From an uncultured Pelagibacteraceae bacterium (GTDB taxonomy: Bacteria > Pseudomonadota > Alphaproteobacteria > Pelagibacterales > Pelagibacteraceae), in assembly GCA_902607525.1 (NCBI GenBank), contig CACLKK010000007.1, positions 1 to 37,910 of the forward strand: a DNA stretch of 37,910 bases, read 5' to 3'. The translations under genes and the position numbers were made by a program. The notes below the pieces were generated by a model. It was not told the origin of the DNA, did no database searches, and saw only the letters and a list, made by a program, of their open reading frames with translations. Of this stretch, positions 1 to 8,487 are shown one piece after another. Positions within the stretch are counted from its first letter, which is position 1. Each line of letters opens with the position of its first letter.

Positions 1-918
1 ATTTTCTTCCTCTTCTAATATTCTTATAGATTCTTCTTCTAAGCTTTTTTCTTTTTCTTTTAGTAATATTTGTTCCTCTCTTATTTTTCTTATGATCTCA
101 TCATTTGATCTTCTTTTTTCTTCAGCTTTTAACCTTCTTTCTTTTTCTTTTTTTAAATTATTCTCTTCTTTTTCTTTTAGTATTCTGTTTTCTTCTTTTA
201 TCTTTGATAGCTCTTCTAGTTCTAATCTTCTTACTTCTTCAGTTTTAGCTTTTTTTAATTCTTTTTTTGCGATTCTTCTTTGTTTTTCGTTTTCTATTTT
301 TTCCTTATAATGTTGATCCAATTCTTCCTTTTCTTTCTGTTCTTCTTCTATTCTTTTTTCTTTTAATTTATTGATTTCCTCAAGAGCTATTATGTTTTCA
401 TTTTCTATTTTTTCTAATTTTTCAGTGTAAGTTTGATTCATCCCTTCCAATTTTTGTTGCTCATCTATTATTCGCTTTTCTTTTAATTGAGAAATCCTTT
501 CAAGCTCTTCCAGTTTTTCTTGTTCTGCTTTAGCTATACCCTCCTTATAAATTGGATCAATTTTCTCCCGCTCTTCTTTTTCTTCTTTTGTCTTTCTCTC
601 TTGTTCAATTCTTATAAAGCTAATTTCTTTTAATCTATTTTCTTCCTCTTTTTTTAGCTGTTTTTCTTCTTCTTTTAACTGCTTTTGTTCTTCTTTAATT
701 TGTTTTTCTCTATTTTTTTCTTTTAATTTTTCTTTTTCCTTTTTTTCTCTTTCGCGTTTTTCTGTGAAATTTTTATAAATTTTACCTAGAGTTTTAAATT
801 TAAAATCCACAGCTTTTTGCAGATCTATACCCACTCCATTAATTTTATTTTTATTATAATTTTTGGTTTTTCTTTTTTTAATAATTTTTTTAACTCTCTT
901 TTTATATTTTTTCCTCAT
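1..918 (-). CDS. Lys/Glu-rich coiled-coil protein, N-terminal part (runs off left edge)
   Basis: Not a recognised family. The minus frame opens at ATG 918 and has no stop down to base 1, so at least 306 residues are present and the C-terminus lies outside the window. GAGAGG sits just before the ATG. Residues 1-27 are very basic. A short normal-composition stretch (about 28-48, IDLQKAVDFKFKTLGKIYKN) follows. From about residue 50 on it is almost all K, E, R, Q, L and I, as in a long charged coiled coil. Residues 121-160 and 161-200 form a 40-residue repeat that begins again at 201, each starting D/N-x-x-Y and carrying LKEKRI 25 residues later. It has no signal peptide. It could be a structural or scaffold protein; function unknown. 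Confidence 0.75.
   Translation of the reverse strand, partial: MRKKYKKRVKKIIKKRKTKNYNKNKINGVGIDLQKAVDFKFKTLGKIYKNFTEKREREKKEKEKLKEKNREKQIKEEQKQLKEEEKQLKKEEENRLKEISFIRIEQERKTKEEKEEREKIDPIYKEGIAKAEQEKLEELERISQLKEKRIIDEQQKLEGMNQTYTEKLEKIENENIIALEEINKLKEKRIEEEQKEKEELDQHYKEKIENEKQRRIAKKELKKAKTEEVRRLELEELSKIKEENRILKEKEENNLKKEKERRLKAEEKRRSNDEIIRKIREEQILLKEKEKSLEEESIRILEEEEN
199..558 (-). repeat. 120-bp in-frame repeat (40-residue coiled-coil units)
   Basis: Within the coiled-coil gene, the D/N-P/Q-x-Y element recurs at codons 121, 161 and 201, exactly 120 bp apart. LKEKRI recurs at codons 145 and 185. The third unit keeps DQHYKEKI but then diverges. This suggests internal duplication with drift; other repeats may lie beyond the window edge. 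Confidence 0.6.
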
Positions 919-1020
919 AATCCCTCTCAAAAAAACAATTATTGTATACCTATTTCAACTGCTAAAAAGATACTAAAGAGTTCGATTTGGGTTTCGTAAT
1001 TGAGCTACATATACCAAAGT

Positions 1021-1809: not shown

Positions 1810-3093
1810 TTATATGCACTCAACAACACCATTTGCACCTAATTTAACTTTAGTTTCTAGACCATATGCAGGAGTTTCATCAAGGTCTAATACTTCTATT
1901 TTTTTTTCTAAAACATTGTAATTAGATTTTGGTAAGCAAAGTTCTTTTGCTTTAAGTTCAAAATCTGCTTTTAATTTATCCATAATTTTTTTACCTCTCT
2001 TTGTATTACTTTCATACTGACTAATTCTAACCCATTTTCTTGCAACAATTTCAATTTTACGTGTATCTTTCCCCGAAAAATCTTTTGCTTGAGTTTCTTC
2101 TTTATCTTTGCATTTAACAATAGAACCTTCTGTACTAACACAATCACCAACACCCTGTTCTATTCCAGAATTAAAAGTGCCTATGTAAGCACTTCCATCA
2201 GAATATGTAAAAGTTCCTTTGCCGTGTCGTTTTCCATTTACAAATTCTCCTTCATATTTTTTACCATCAGGATAAAATAAAGTTCCTTCTCCATGTAATT
2301 TATCATTTTTAAATTTTCCTAAATACTTTCTGCCATTTTTCCATACTTTAGTTCCGTTACCATGGCTTTTACCATTTTGCCATTCTCCGTAATATTTATC
2401 TCCATTTGCCCAAATAAAAGTTCCATAACCATGTGGTTCAAAATTTTTAAAGTCACCTATATATCTTGCTCCACCAAGATATCTTGATATTCCTTTAATA
2501 ATTTTTCCATTTTTAAATAATCCTTTATATCTATGCCCAGATTCTGCTTTGTAAGAACCTTTACAATTTGTCCATTGTTTTAAATCGTTACCTTGACAAA
2601 TAAATACAGATTCTTGCTCTTTTTTTAATTCTTCTTGTGCTTTTAAAATCTCCTTCTCTTCTTTGCTAATTTTTGCTTTTTCTATTTTTTCTTTATCCCA
2701 ATTTCCTTTAACATCCATACAATAGCTAACTCTTTTTCCATTTAGTTTAAAAATTTCCATATCGATTCCGCTTTCCTTTTTATATTCTAACTTAATGACG
2801 GACTTTGATTTAGAGTTTAAAAAATATTGATAATAGATTGCCTCGCCCTTTGCACTTTTTATTTTTTCACTAATAATTTTGTTTGCTTCTATCGATTTTA
2901 TTTTATCAGAAAAATTTTGAATTGCACCATCAGCCGTTTTCAATTCTACTTCAATAGTATTTTTTTTAAGATTTATTATATAATTTCCCATTACAGCATT
3001 ACTAATTTTGCACTCTTTAAAAAAGTACATATCTGCAAAGCTGGTATTACTAAGTAAAGTGCTTACTAAAATTATTATAAAAAAATTTCTCAT
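1810..3093 (-). CDS. Exported MORN-repeat protein
   Basis: 427 residues. An N-terminal signal peptide ends near TSFA-D (residues 1-20), so it is probably exported. Residues about 21-130 form a novel domain, and 135-162 a charged helix rich in K and E. About six MORN repeats of 22-23 residues start at Y189 and then near 211, 234, 257, 280 and 303, each of the form YxGxFxNGxxHGxGTxxxxDGxx; the first and last are degenerate. A basic C-terminal domain of about 100 residues follows. MORN repeats often bind lipids or act as spacers, but no enzymatic domain is visible. A promoter-like pair lies just upstream (3105-3133). Its cellular role is unknown. Confidence 0.8.
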   Translation of the reverse strand: MRNFFIIILVSTLLSNTSFADMYFFKECKISNAVMGNYIINLKKNTIEVELKTADGAIQNFSDKIKSIEANKIISEKIKSAKGEAIYYQYFLNSKSKSVIKLEYKKESGIDMEIFKLNGKRVSYCMDVKGNWDKEKIEKAKISKEEKEILKAQEELKKEQESVFICQGNDLKQWTNCKGSYKAESGHRYKGLFKNGKIIKGISRYLGGARYIGDFKNFEPHGYGTFIWANGDKYYGEWQNGKSHGNGTKVWKNGRKYLGKFKNDKLHGEGTLFYPDGKKYEGEFVNGKRHGKGTFTYSDGSAYIGTFNSGIEQGVGDCVSTEGSIVKCKDKEETQAKDFSGKDTRKIEIVARKWVRISQYESNTKRGKKIMDKLKADFELKAKELCLPKSNYNVLEKKIEVLDLDETPAYGLETKVKLGANGVVECI

Positions 3094-3104
3094 TCGAATT
3101 TAAC

Positions 3105-3133
3105 AGTATAATAAGGTGTTTTGTTTTAAACAA
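3105..3133 (-). promoter_or_regulatory. Putative sigma70 promoter of the MORN gene
   Basis: On the minus strand, TTGTTT (3133-3128) is followed after 17 bp by TATACT (3110-3105). Transcription would start near 3098, leaving a leader of only a few bases before the ATG at 3093. The -35 box sits inside an imperfect-centre palindrome TTTGTTT-T-AAACAAA (3120-3134), which could be an operator. Confidence 0.4.
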
Positions 3134-3164
3134 ATAATTGATTTAAATACTATATATTTTGCTT

Positions 3165-3170
3165 TATAAT
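3165..3170 (+). promoter_or_regulatory. Perfect -10 box for the 16-codon microORF
   Basis: TATAAT lies 42 bp before the microORF ATG at 3213. The best upstream -35 candidates are weak: TTGATT at 3138-3143 is 21 bp away, longer than ideal. The position gives a leader of roughly 35 bases that contains AGGAGG. Confidence 0.4.
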
Positions 3171-3212
3171 TTAGACTGATTCGTAATTTAATTAATTAAT
3201 AGGAGGCATATT

Positions 3213-3263
3213 ATGGTTTGGGTAGCTGCAGCAGTAGTAGTAATTTGGTACATGAATAAGTAA
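3213..3263 (+). CDS. Putative 16-residue membrane microprotein
   Basis: ATG GTT TGG ... TAA encodes MVWVAAAVVVIWYMNK. It is preceded by AGGAGG at 3201-3206 with a six-base spacer, one of the strongest ribosome sites in the window, and a TATAAT box lies further upstream. The peptide is a single hydrophobic helix with aromatic residues near both ends (W3, W12, Y13) and a K at the C-terminus, as expected for a tiny membrane peptide. The stop abuts the stop codon of the opposing NlpC/P60 gene. It is far shorter than usual annotation cutoffs. No known family comes to mind. Confidence 0.5.
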   Translation: MVWVAAAVVVIWYMNK

Positions 3264-3992
3264 TTAAGACATTCTTCTTATTCCAATTACTTTTAAATTT
3301 GCCGTTTTGTAAATTCTATCGATAGTTTTTTTGATAGGCATTATTAGTGTTTTCTTTTTTGGTCCGTAAGCATGGATTAGTCTGTGCTTTGAAGTAGCAA
3401 TAGCTACATGACCCTTCCAAAAAATTAGATCGTTTTTCTTTATATTTTCTATTTTAATTTTTTTCTTAAAATATCTGATTTGATCTTTTGTATCTCTTGG
3501 ACAAAATTTATTATTAAAGTTAAAAGGCAACTGCACAAGCGCTGAACAATCAATACCACTATAATGTTTGCCTCCCCATTTATATTTTATATTGATAAAT
3601 TTTTTTATATTTTCAAAAATATTGTTTGTCTTATAATTAATTTTTTTTATATCCTTTTTTTTAATCCAAAAACTGTCAAATTTATAATAATTTTTTTTAC
3701 TTTCTATAACTTTAATTTTAGATCCAAAACTAAGTTTTTTTTTAATTTTAATGCCTGGTCTTGAATATATTATTGCACTTAAACTGAACACTTTATGAGT
3801 ATTTTTTTGATTAGGATAAAATTTTTTTCTTTTTATGTAGCCTTGATAATTATCTTGATCATTTTTAATTTTGATCCATGATTTATTTTTTTTTAATATT
3901 TTGAATGTTTCCCCATACAAAAGTTGTGTGGAGAGTTTGGATTTTGTACTCTTTTTTGTATATACGTTTATTATCGGTAGATTACTTCTCAC
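3264..3992 (-). CDS. NlpC/P60 cysteine peptidase with two SH3-like domains
   Basis: 242 residues. Residues about 8-60 and 66-115 look like two bacterial SH3 domains. Residues 120-242 are an NlpC/P60 peptidase with the expected triad: C149 in GIDCSAL, H195 in WKGHVAIA and H207 in LIHAYG. This family cleaves gamma-D-Glu-diamino-acid or related bonds in peptidoglycan stem peptides. There is no signal peptide, so it may act in the cytosol, as YkfC-type enzymes do in wall recycling. It overlaps the AmpG-like permease gene by four bases (ATGA), which suggests translational coupling and a shared role in handling muropeptides. Substrate is inferred. Confidence 0.82.
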   Translation of the reverse strand: MRSNLPIINVYTKKSTKSKLSTQLLYGETFKILKKNKSWIKIKNDQDNYQGYIKRKKFYPNQKNTHKVFSLSAIIYSRPGIKIKKKLSFGSKIKVIESKKNYYKFDSFWIKKKDIKKINYKTNNIFENIKKFINIKYKWGGKHYSGIDCSALVQLPFNFNNKFCPRDTKDQIRYFKKKIKIENIKKNDLIFWKGHVAIATSKHRLIHAYGPKKKTLIMPIKKTIDRIYKTANLKVIGIRRMS

Positions 3993-6924: not shown

Positions 6925-8487
6925 GTGATTGATAAATCAGCAATTCAAGCAACCAGCTCTTGGCCATTTGTTGAAGCAAGAAAATTGGTTAAAGAAAGAC
7001 AAAAAATTTACGAAAAAAAAGGTAAAATCACTTTGCAAACTGGTTATGGTCCAAGCGGTTTACCACACATAGGAACTTTTGCTGAAGTAGCACGCACTAC
7101 CATGATGGTTAATGCCATAAAACAGTTAATCGATATTCCAACTGAAATAATTACTTTTTCTGATGATATGGATGGTTTAAGAAAAGTACCTGAAAACATT
7201 CCAAATAAAGAAATATTAGAAAAAAATTTACATAAACCGCTTACCAGCGTTCCAGACCCTTTTAAAAAATATGGTAGCTTTGGAGAACATAACAACGAAA
7301 TGTTAAAAAAATTTTTAGATGAGTTTAAGTTCGATTATATTTTTAAAAGCTCTACCGATACATATAAAAAAGGATTATTTAATTCTGCTTTACTTTTAGT
7401 TTTGGAAAAGTATGAACAGATAAAAGAGATTGTTCTTCCTACTTTGGGAAAAGAAAGACAAAAAACTTATAGCCCCTTTTTACCGGTATGTCCAGAAACA
7501 GGAAAAGTTTTAGAAGTTCCGGTTATTGAAATAAAAAAAAATGAAGGAAAAATTATTTATCAACATGAAAACAAAAAAAAAGAAACAGAAATTATTAATG
7601 GAAAATGTAAATTGCAATGGAAAGTGGATTGGGCGATGAGATGGTATTCCTTTGATGTTGATTACGAAATGTACGGAAAAGATTTAATTGAGAGCGCAAT
7701 TCTTTCCGGAAAAATTTGTAAAATTCTTGGAAAAAAAAGCCCAAATGGTTTTGCATACGAAATGTTTTTAGATGAAAAGGGTGAAAAAATTTCTAAATCA
7801 AAAGGAAACGGAATAACCATCGAAGAGTGGTTGAAATATGCTTCTCCTGAAAGTTTATCTTTATACATGTATCAAAACCCAAAAAGAGCAAAAAAACTTT
7901 ATGCTGATGTTGTTCCAAAAGCTGTTGATGAATACTTAACATCCATTGATAAATTTAGTGAACAAGATGATAAACAAAAACTTCTGAACCCGGTTTGGCA
8001 TATACATAAAGGCAACCCACCAAAAGAAAAATCGATTATGCCATTTTCAGTTTTATTAAATTTGGTCGGAACCAGCAATGCTAATGACAAGGAAGTATTA
8101 TGGAAATTTATAAAAAAAAATAAAAAAAATATTAAAGTTTCAGATCATCCTATTTTAGACGGTTTAGTGGGTTATGCATTAAAGTATTTTGAAGATATAG
8201 TTAAACCAAATAAAAAATATAGAAAACCAAATGATAAAGAAAAAAAAGCATTAAAAGATTTAGTTAAGAGATTGAAAGAATGCCAGGAACAGACAGATCC
8301 TGAAGCAATACAAACAATTGTTTATTCAGTAGGGAAAGATAATGGATATCAAGAAAATTTAAGAGAATGGTTTAAAGCGATCTATGAAATAATTTTTGGA
8401 GATCAAGACGGCCCAAGAATGGGATTTTTTATAAGTTTTTTTGGCATAAAAGAAAGTATAGAACTGATTAACAAATATATTAAATAA
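6925..8487 (+). CDS. lysK: Lysyl-tRNA synthetase, class I
   Basis: 520 residues, charging tRNA-Lys with lysine. It is a class I enzyme: a HIGH-type signature PHIGT at 47-51 and KISKS at 288-292. Class I LysRS is typical of archaea, spirochaetes and alphaproteobacteria, whereas most bacteria have the unrelated class II form. The start is GTG at 6925; no better in-frame ATG precedes the conserved N-terminus. The stop overlaps the pyrD start (TAATG), suggesting coupled translation. Confidence 0.95.
   Translation: MIDKSAIQATSSWPFVEARKLVKERQKIYEKKGKITLQTGYGPSGLPHIGTFAEVARTTMMVNAIKQLIDIPTEIITFSDDMDGLRKVPENIPNKEILEKNLHKPLTSVPDPFKKYGSFGEHNNEMLKKFLDEFKFDYIFKSSTDTYKKGLFNSALLLVLEKYEQIKEIVLPTLGKERQKTYSPFLPVCPETGKVLEVPVIEIKKNEGKIIYQHENKKKETEIINGKCKLQWKVDWAMRWYSFDVDYEMYGKDLIESAILSGKICKILGKKSPNGFAYEMFLDEKGEKISKSKGNGITIEEWLKYASPESLSLYMYQNPKRAKKLYADVVPKAVDEYLTSIDKFSEQDDKQKLLNPVWHIHKGNPPKEKSIMPFSVLLNLVGTSNANDKEVLWKFIKKNKKNIKVSDHPILDGLVGYALKYFEDIVKPNKKYRKPNDKEKKALKDLVKRLKECQEQTDPEAIQTIVYSVGKDNGYQENLREWFKAIYEIIFGDQDGPRMGFFISFFGIKESIELINKYIK

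Follow-up and report, generated by a model that had tools for sequence, protein, structure and literature searches.

A 16-codon gene adjoining nlpC in an uncultured Pelagibacteraceae bacterium and a SAR11 family of stand-alone, predicted membrane microproteins

The DNA analyzed here (the window) is a 37,910-nt stretch from an uncultured Pelagibacteraceae bacterium whose genome assembly comprises 770,570 bases and is ~58% complete. A 16-codon ORF was found between a divergently oriented gene encoding MORN repeats and a convergent gene of the nlpC type, which served as the syntenic anchor (Table 1). The nearest named relatives of this nlpC gene are uncultured Pelagibacteraceae isolates, e.g., AG-404-E02. 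The ORF, an AGGAGG at good spacing and a TATAAT box had been reported in a preliminary description of the DNA, and all three were confirmed in the sequence. The description had also stated that the stop of the ORF abuts the opposing gene exactly, which was confirmed as well. The stop codon touches that of nlpC, and the distance between the two genes was 0 nt in seven of eight same-genus orthologues and 1 nt in the eighth. The 119-bp gap mentioned in the description corresponds to the non-coding stretch 5′ of the ORF (3094-3212), while the full gap between the MORN-repeat gene and nlpC is 170 bp.

Table 1. Coordinates of the microprotein locus in the window and of additional micro-ORFs at related loci
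Feature	Position or locus	Strand	Basis or remark
MORN-repeat gene, divergent, 5′ side of the ORF	1810..3093	-	ORF; Pfam MORN 7.3e-27
Conserved upstream block TTTTAAACAAATAATTGATTT	3124..3144	+	Common to same-genus orthologues
-35-like TTTAAA, 17-nt spacer to TATAAT	3142..3147	+	Promoter scan; consensus match only
-10 box TATAAT	3165..3170	+	Promoter scan
GATTCG element just 3′ of TATAAT, close to where transcription is expected to start	3178..3183	+	Enriched in family upstreams
Shine-Dalgarno AGGAGG, 6-nt spacer	3201..3206	+	Anti-SD duplex -10.2 kcal/mol
Microprotein gene MVWVAAAVVVIWYMNK, 16 codons	3213..3263	+	ATG 3213, TAA 3261-3263; sequence and orthologues with synonymous changes
nlpC-type gene (SH3 + NlpC/P60), convergent, syntenic anchor	3264..3992	-	ORF; Pfam NLPC_P60 1.2e-13, SH3_3 8.8e-12
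MHWILLGIAIGIVIYLADKYIF-type microprotein	L058, L060, L061, L066, L071, L084, L085, L087, L089, L090, L091, L097	nlpC strand	
Micro-ORF MGADILLISMGALIVLTWIWNNA	L072 1421	-	
Micro-ORF MEILIMVLIVVALTK	L116 1933	+	
Micro-ORF MSIFAVAIIIYIFAAG	L105 1698	-	
Micro-ORF MAIIIIGIIVLYTATT	L081 1683	+	

The ribosome site of the ORF was compared with those of 35 long ORFs of the window. Their anti-SD duplexes had a median of +0.3 kcal/mol, and none reached the -10.2 kcal/mol of the microprotein ORF even when the best start within the first 30 codons was taken, which bears out the earlier remark that Shine-Dalgarno sequences are weak elsewhere in this DNA. An AGGAGG followed by ATG is nevertheless at chance level in the window's genome when taken by itself, with 33 AGGAGG-N3-9-ATG sites in 770 kb versus 28 for the reversed control pattern. 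The proof of a gene therefore rests on comparison across genomes. Of the remaining upstream features, the block TTTTAAACAAATAATTGATTT is a possible activator site, and the GATTCG element, lying close to where transcription should begin, may serve as an operator.

Same-genus SAR11 genomes were found to carry an ORF at the same position beside nlpC, with synonymous changes. Four genomes, the window's own included, encode MVWVAAAVVVIWYMNK; two of the other three carry several synonymous changes relative to the window, whereas the third (G005) is identical over the ORF. The peptides of other same-genus orthologues are MIWVAAAVVVVWYMNK, MIWVVAAVAVIWYMNK, MLWIAAAAAVLWYMNQ, MLWAVAALAVIWYLNQ, and MEVVIIAVIAIWYLTQ, and one same-genus genome possesses two tandem copies of MGALEVIAVVAVLYWFMNK. 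Among the four genomes with the identical peptide, pS was 0.41 and pN was 0. For eight gap-free orthologues, pN/pS was 0.21 and variation was in excess at third positions (entropy, p = 2.3e-4); the corresponding values for 53 copies of the MSG type described below were 0.38 and p = 2.8e-4. The two other sense frames gave pN/pS ratios of 0.71-0.94 over both sets (0.71-0.75 for the eight orthologues). The antisense frame with the best score mirrors third positions; it gave 0.30 for the orthologues and 0.53 for the MSG-type copies, a worse fit than that of the sense frame, which was the most constrained among the six tested. As a check on whether the ORF is a real microprotein, it had been proposed to look in relatives for conservation of the 16 codons with a bias to synonymous changes and for retention of the Shine-Dalgarno sequence, and both were observed. 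These comparisons show that the amino acid sequence is under selection and that the strong ribosome site is conserved, and the ORF is almost certainly a real microprotein gene. We therefore rejected a chance ORF, since it is conservation across genomes that makes this ORF significant, unlike the motif alone. In two genomes of the same genus with an intact nlpC (loci L010 and L011), other sequence abuts nlpC and no such ORF is present, and the gene thus appears to be dispensable.

Profile searches revealed relatives of 18-20 aa, including the MSGWEILAVVAVIYWLANK type and MSGLEILAVVAVIYILAK, and indicated that the ORF belongs to a SAR11 family of stand-alone hydrophobic peptides of ~16-22 aa that spans several genera. 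A re-scan of all retrieved DNA gave 79 distinct copies encoding 64 distinct peptides in at least six genera. Profile A2 had matches in 56 of 297 Pelagibacteraceae genomes, and the family was present in 19 of 31 genomes in genus g2, in 55 of 169 in g4, and in two of five in g6, most of the genomes counted being incomplete. In a class sample of 337 genomes, the window's own was the sole match, with none in the sampled Alphaproteobacteria outside SAR11. Members have in common a 16-22-aa ORF with an ATG start, a strong ribosome site, a hydrophobic core (commonly ~12 residues), and an aromatic and N/Q/K-rich C-terminus. The consensus is M-[V/L/I]-W-[A/V-rich]-WY-[M/L]-N-[K/Q] in the window's genus and MSG[W/L]EILAVVAVIYxLxN in other genera. 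The short form of the window and the MSG form are likely, but not certainly, homologous. This link is drawn from an intermediate peptide, MGALEVIAVVAVLYWFMNK, encoded in the same MORN-nlpC setting by a genome of the window's genus (G001), and from profile scores, with profile A3 scoring the window peptide at E 4.7e-4 when the window sequence is itself one row of that profile. The peptides have a mean GRAVY of 1.56 and a net charge of mostly -1. None of the 64 distinct peptides has K or R before the last four residues, and 61 have an aromatic residue within the last seven. The lack of early basic residues and the mostly negative charge set them apart from cationic antimicrobial peptides.

The upstream regions of 78 family copies showed a similar arrangement. 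AGGAG or GGAGG occurred 3-13 nt upstream in 60 copies versus 0.5 in shuffles, and the median anti-SD duplex of -8.0 kcal/mol indicates strong ribosome sites across the family. An exact TATAAT was present in 30 upstreams (8.9 in shuffles), TTGATTT, counted for the conserved upstream block, in 12 (1.5), and GATTCG or CGAATC in 27 (0.9), although these are not independent events because the family copies share ancestry. Some lineages carry GATTCG and others its reverse complement, CGAATC, both just 3′ of the -10 box. As judged from the predicted fold of the 5′ end, the ribosome site would be mostly exposed and is not clearly sequestered. An own promoter and monocistronic expression are strongly suggested.

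Most family copies are single genes, and 65 of the 78 are convergent with the next gene. They occur, among other places, at the nlpC 3′ end, downstream of tRNA-Ser(GGA) (directly so in six genomes), and in the vicinity of a TRAP transporter, of an aconitase-like gene, and of a DUF2784-like gene, these last three being named from sequence by eye. No partner gene was consistently adjacent to the family copies. The loci are compact, with 0-1 nt between ORF and nlpC in the window's genus and ~90 nt in genus g2. Arrays or tandem copies were present in G001, G021, G056, and G048. The last three contain arrays of 3-5 divergent peptides (e.g., MWVPILALGALVWYFQNQ, MEWVILAGIVGLAYYLNQ, and MEWAVVALVVWYVWSQQ), the weakest members of which fall below profile significance and were included on the basis of their location, ribosome site, and composition.

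A truncated tRNA-Ser copy lacking its 5′ part was identified at positions 1025-1091 of the window. It was not called by ARAGORN, and 62 of its 67 bases match the intact tRNA-Ser(GGA) of G008. The copy is a probable relic of rearrangement beside tRNA-Ser, and the stretch between it and nlpC therefore looks like a variable region. Hypervariable regions are known in SAR11, including one with flanking tRNA genes (PMC2217521). A tRNA-Ser remnant upstream of the g2 copies was first suspected by eye; of four copies tested, it was significant for L048 and L067 and not for L061 and L087. In G008, nlpC (L015, 1501-2199) appears to be broken, with 11 in-frame stops along the match, and the micro-ORF MIYVAGALVLFWLINQ persists downstream of tRNA-Ser. 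At the edge of the variable stretch of the window, a long open frame (1-930, minus strand) in low-complexity DNA runs off the left end; it probably encodes a K/E-rich protein, as the DNA is T/C-rich on the plus strand.

Additional micro-ORFs were observed at the related loci (Table 1). Genus g2 has another conserved microprotein, 22 aa long (MHWILLGIAIGIVIYLADKYIF type), encoded on the nlpC strand just after the nlpC stop. Its gene has a ribosome site of its own and is convergent with that of the MSG-type peptide. More hydrophobic micro-ORFs with strong ribosome sites occur beside family members (MGADILLISMGALIVLTWIWNNA, MEILIMVLIVVALTK, MSIFAVAIIIYIFAAG, and MAIIIIGIIVLYTATT), and SAR11 may hold several such micro-ORF families.

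Searches with the few members of at least 20 aa gave no match in NCBIfam, PHROGs, or PADLOC at E up to 1 or in the PDB at E up to 10, most of the family being too short for such searches. Pfam returned only a sub-threshold holin match (14.9 bits versus a cut-off of 25.4). With no accepted match in any of these databases, assignment to a known family was rejected. A phage origin was rejected as well, in that three degenerate DNA patterns had no match in viral contigs; because each pattern must be matched exactly, more distant forms may have escaped. Searches of the open-access literature on small proteins, small RNAs, and microproteins of SAR11 brought up no description of the family. Given the lack of an accepted database match and of a description in this literature, we call it a new family of predicted membrane microproteins, unusual in being so small, in standing alone, and in forming arrays. 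In the Global Microbial smORF Catalog, smORFs are predicted down to a length of 30 nt (9 aa), and its authors report that homologue recovery drops drastically near 20 aa (PMC11364881). Because the catalogue starts at 30 nt, sequences of the family may be listed there, unnamed.

As judged by its sequence, the product is very probably a membrane peptide. The best explanation as a whole, to which we give an even chance, is a translated, stand-alone micropeptide of the inner membrane that serves as an accessory subunit or modulator. A short mRNA would be translated strongly to yield the peptide at a high level, and the peptide would insert in the inner membrane as one short helix, the ends of which would carry interfacial Trp/Tyr, with Asn/Gln/Lys at the C-terminus. 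There, like KdpF, CydX, and AcrZ, it may form a small accessory subunit of a larger membrane protein or modulate that protein or the bilayer; we propose this role tentatively. KdpF, CydX, AcrZ, and TorE/NapE are microproteins of ~29-60 aa that have a known partner through an operon or cognate complex, whereas the SAR11 peptides are shorter (16-22 aa), stand alone without a conserved neighbor, and can form arrays. The two groups are alike in being very small and hydrophobic, with a single predicted membrane segment, and in being kept by selection (cf. PMC6134056, PMC7267776). Two points count against this explanation: no neighboring gene is constant enough to be named as a partner, and the hydrophobic core, commonly ~12 residues, is rather short to cross the whole membrane. 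The gene is found in only some of the genomes, has relocated, and has been duplicated in tandem, which indicates an accessory role that depends on the niche. Expansion into arrays and turnover of the sequence are less usual for dedicated enzyme subunits and would also suit toxin-like or defence-like families.

The main rival, a serious one even though we consider it unlikely, is an Ibs-like toxin that depolarizes or stresses the membrane of its own cell and is held in check by RNA, e.g., by antisense read-through from the convergent neighbor. The tandem and array copies are reminiscent of the ibs genes of E. coli, which are multi-copy, and the convergent orientation of most copies, abutting in the window's genus, is in keeping with such a toxin. 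Length and hydrophobicity are almost equal to those of the Ibs/Sib type I toxin-antitoxin system: IbsC is 19 aa long, and a stretch of 15 aa that includes at least 10 hydrophobic residues is enough for toxicity (PMC8309996). The SAR11 family includes hydrophobic peptides of this kind (~18-19 aa, 10 or more hydrophobic residues). The compact SAR11 loci, however, appear to leave too little space for a dedicated antisense RNA gene; no antisense RNA family was found by Rfam, and there is no space outside nlpC in the window's genus, although antisense read-through may occur. Also unlike Ibs/Sib, the ribosome site is not evidently sequestered, and no sequence similarity is shown. The family lacks the cationic residues found in most such toxins, but C-terminal cationic residues are also lacking in IbsC, ShoB, and DinQ (PMC8309996).

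The arrays can also be read as a diversifying peptide system of members of up to 22 aa that act collectively at the membrane under a common GATTCG/CGAATC control element near the transcription start, with each peptide having its own ribosome site and probably its own promoter. This reading strikes us as improbable; such collective action could serve, e.g., to exclude phage, to limit the cells themselves, or to modulate the membrane in a combinatorial way. Also improbable is an accessory function in a variable region by tRNA-Ser(GGA), with the gene acting against phage at the membrane through superinfection exclusion or abortive infection. The copies directly 3′ of tRNA-Ser(GGA), the truncated tRNA-Ser copies in the window, L048, and L067, and the patchy presence and array diversification agree with an anti-phage role, but neither PADLOC and PHROGs nor the viral contigs, searched with the three degenerate patterns, gave a match, no defence gene was recognized beside family copies, and the TRAP, aconitase, and DUF2784 neighborhoods are not visibly islands.

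A regulatory small RNA with an incidental reading frame would account for the short transcription unit, for the GC-rich hairpins that follow some array members, and for terminator-like sites that slightly exceed the shuffled mean. It is largely refuted and very improbable, as codon-position statistics speak against an incidental ORF, the sense frame is the most constrained, and the ATG and ribosome site are conserved across genera. The leader peptide or attenuator offered as an option in the preliminary description, to which a short ORF with a strong ribosome site would be suited, has next to no probability and fails because no same-strand gene follows the ORF in the window before position 6925, most family copies face a convergent gene, and no downstream gene is common to the family loci.

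SAR11 are among the most abundant bacteria of the ocean, and their genomes are extremely streamlined. Taken together with selection on 16-22 codons in several genera and with the arrays, this suggests that the gene is unlikely to be idle. Genes of this length are largely missed by standard annotation and homology searches, and the family supplies concrete peptides and loci with which existing metatranscriptomes and metaproteomes can be searched. It also raises the question of the minimum size of a stand-alone membrane gene.
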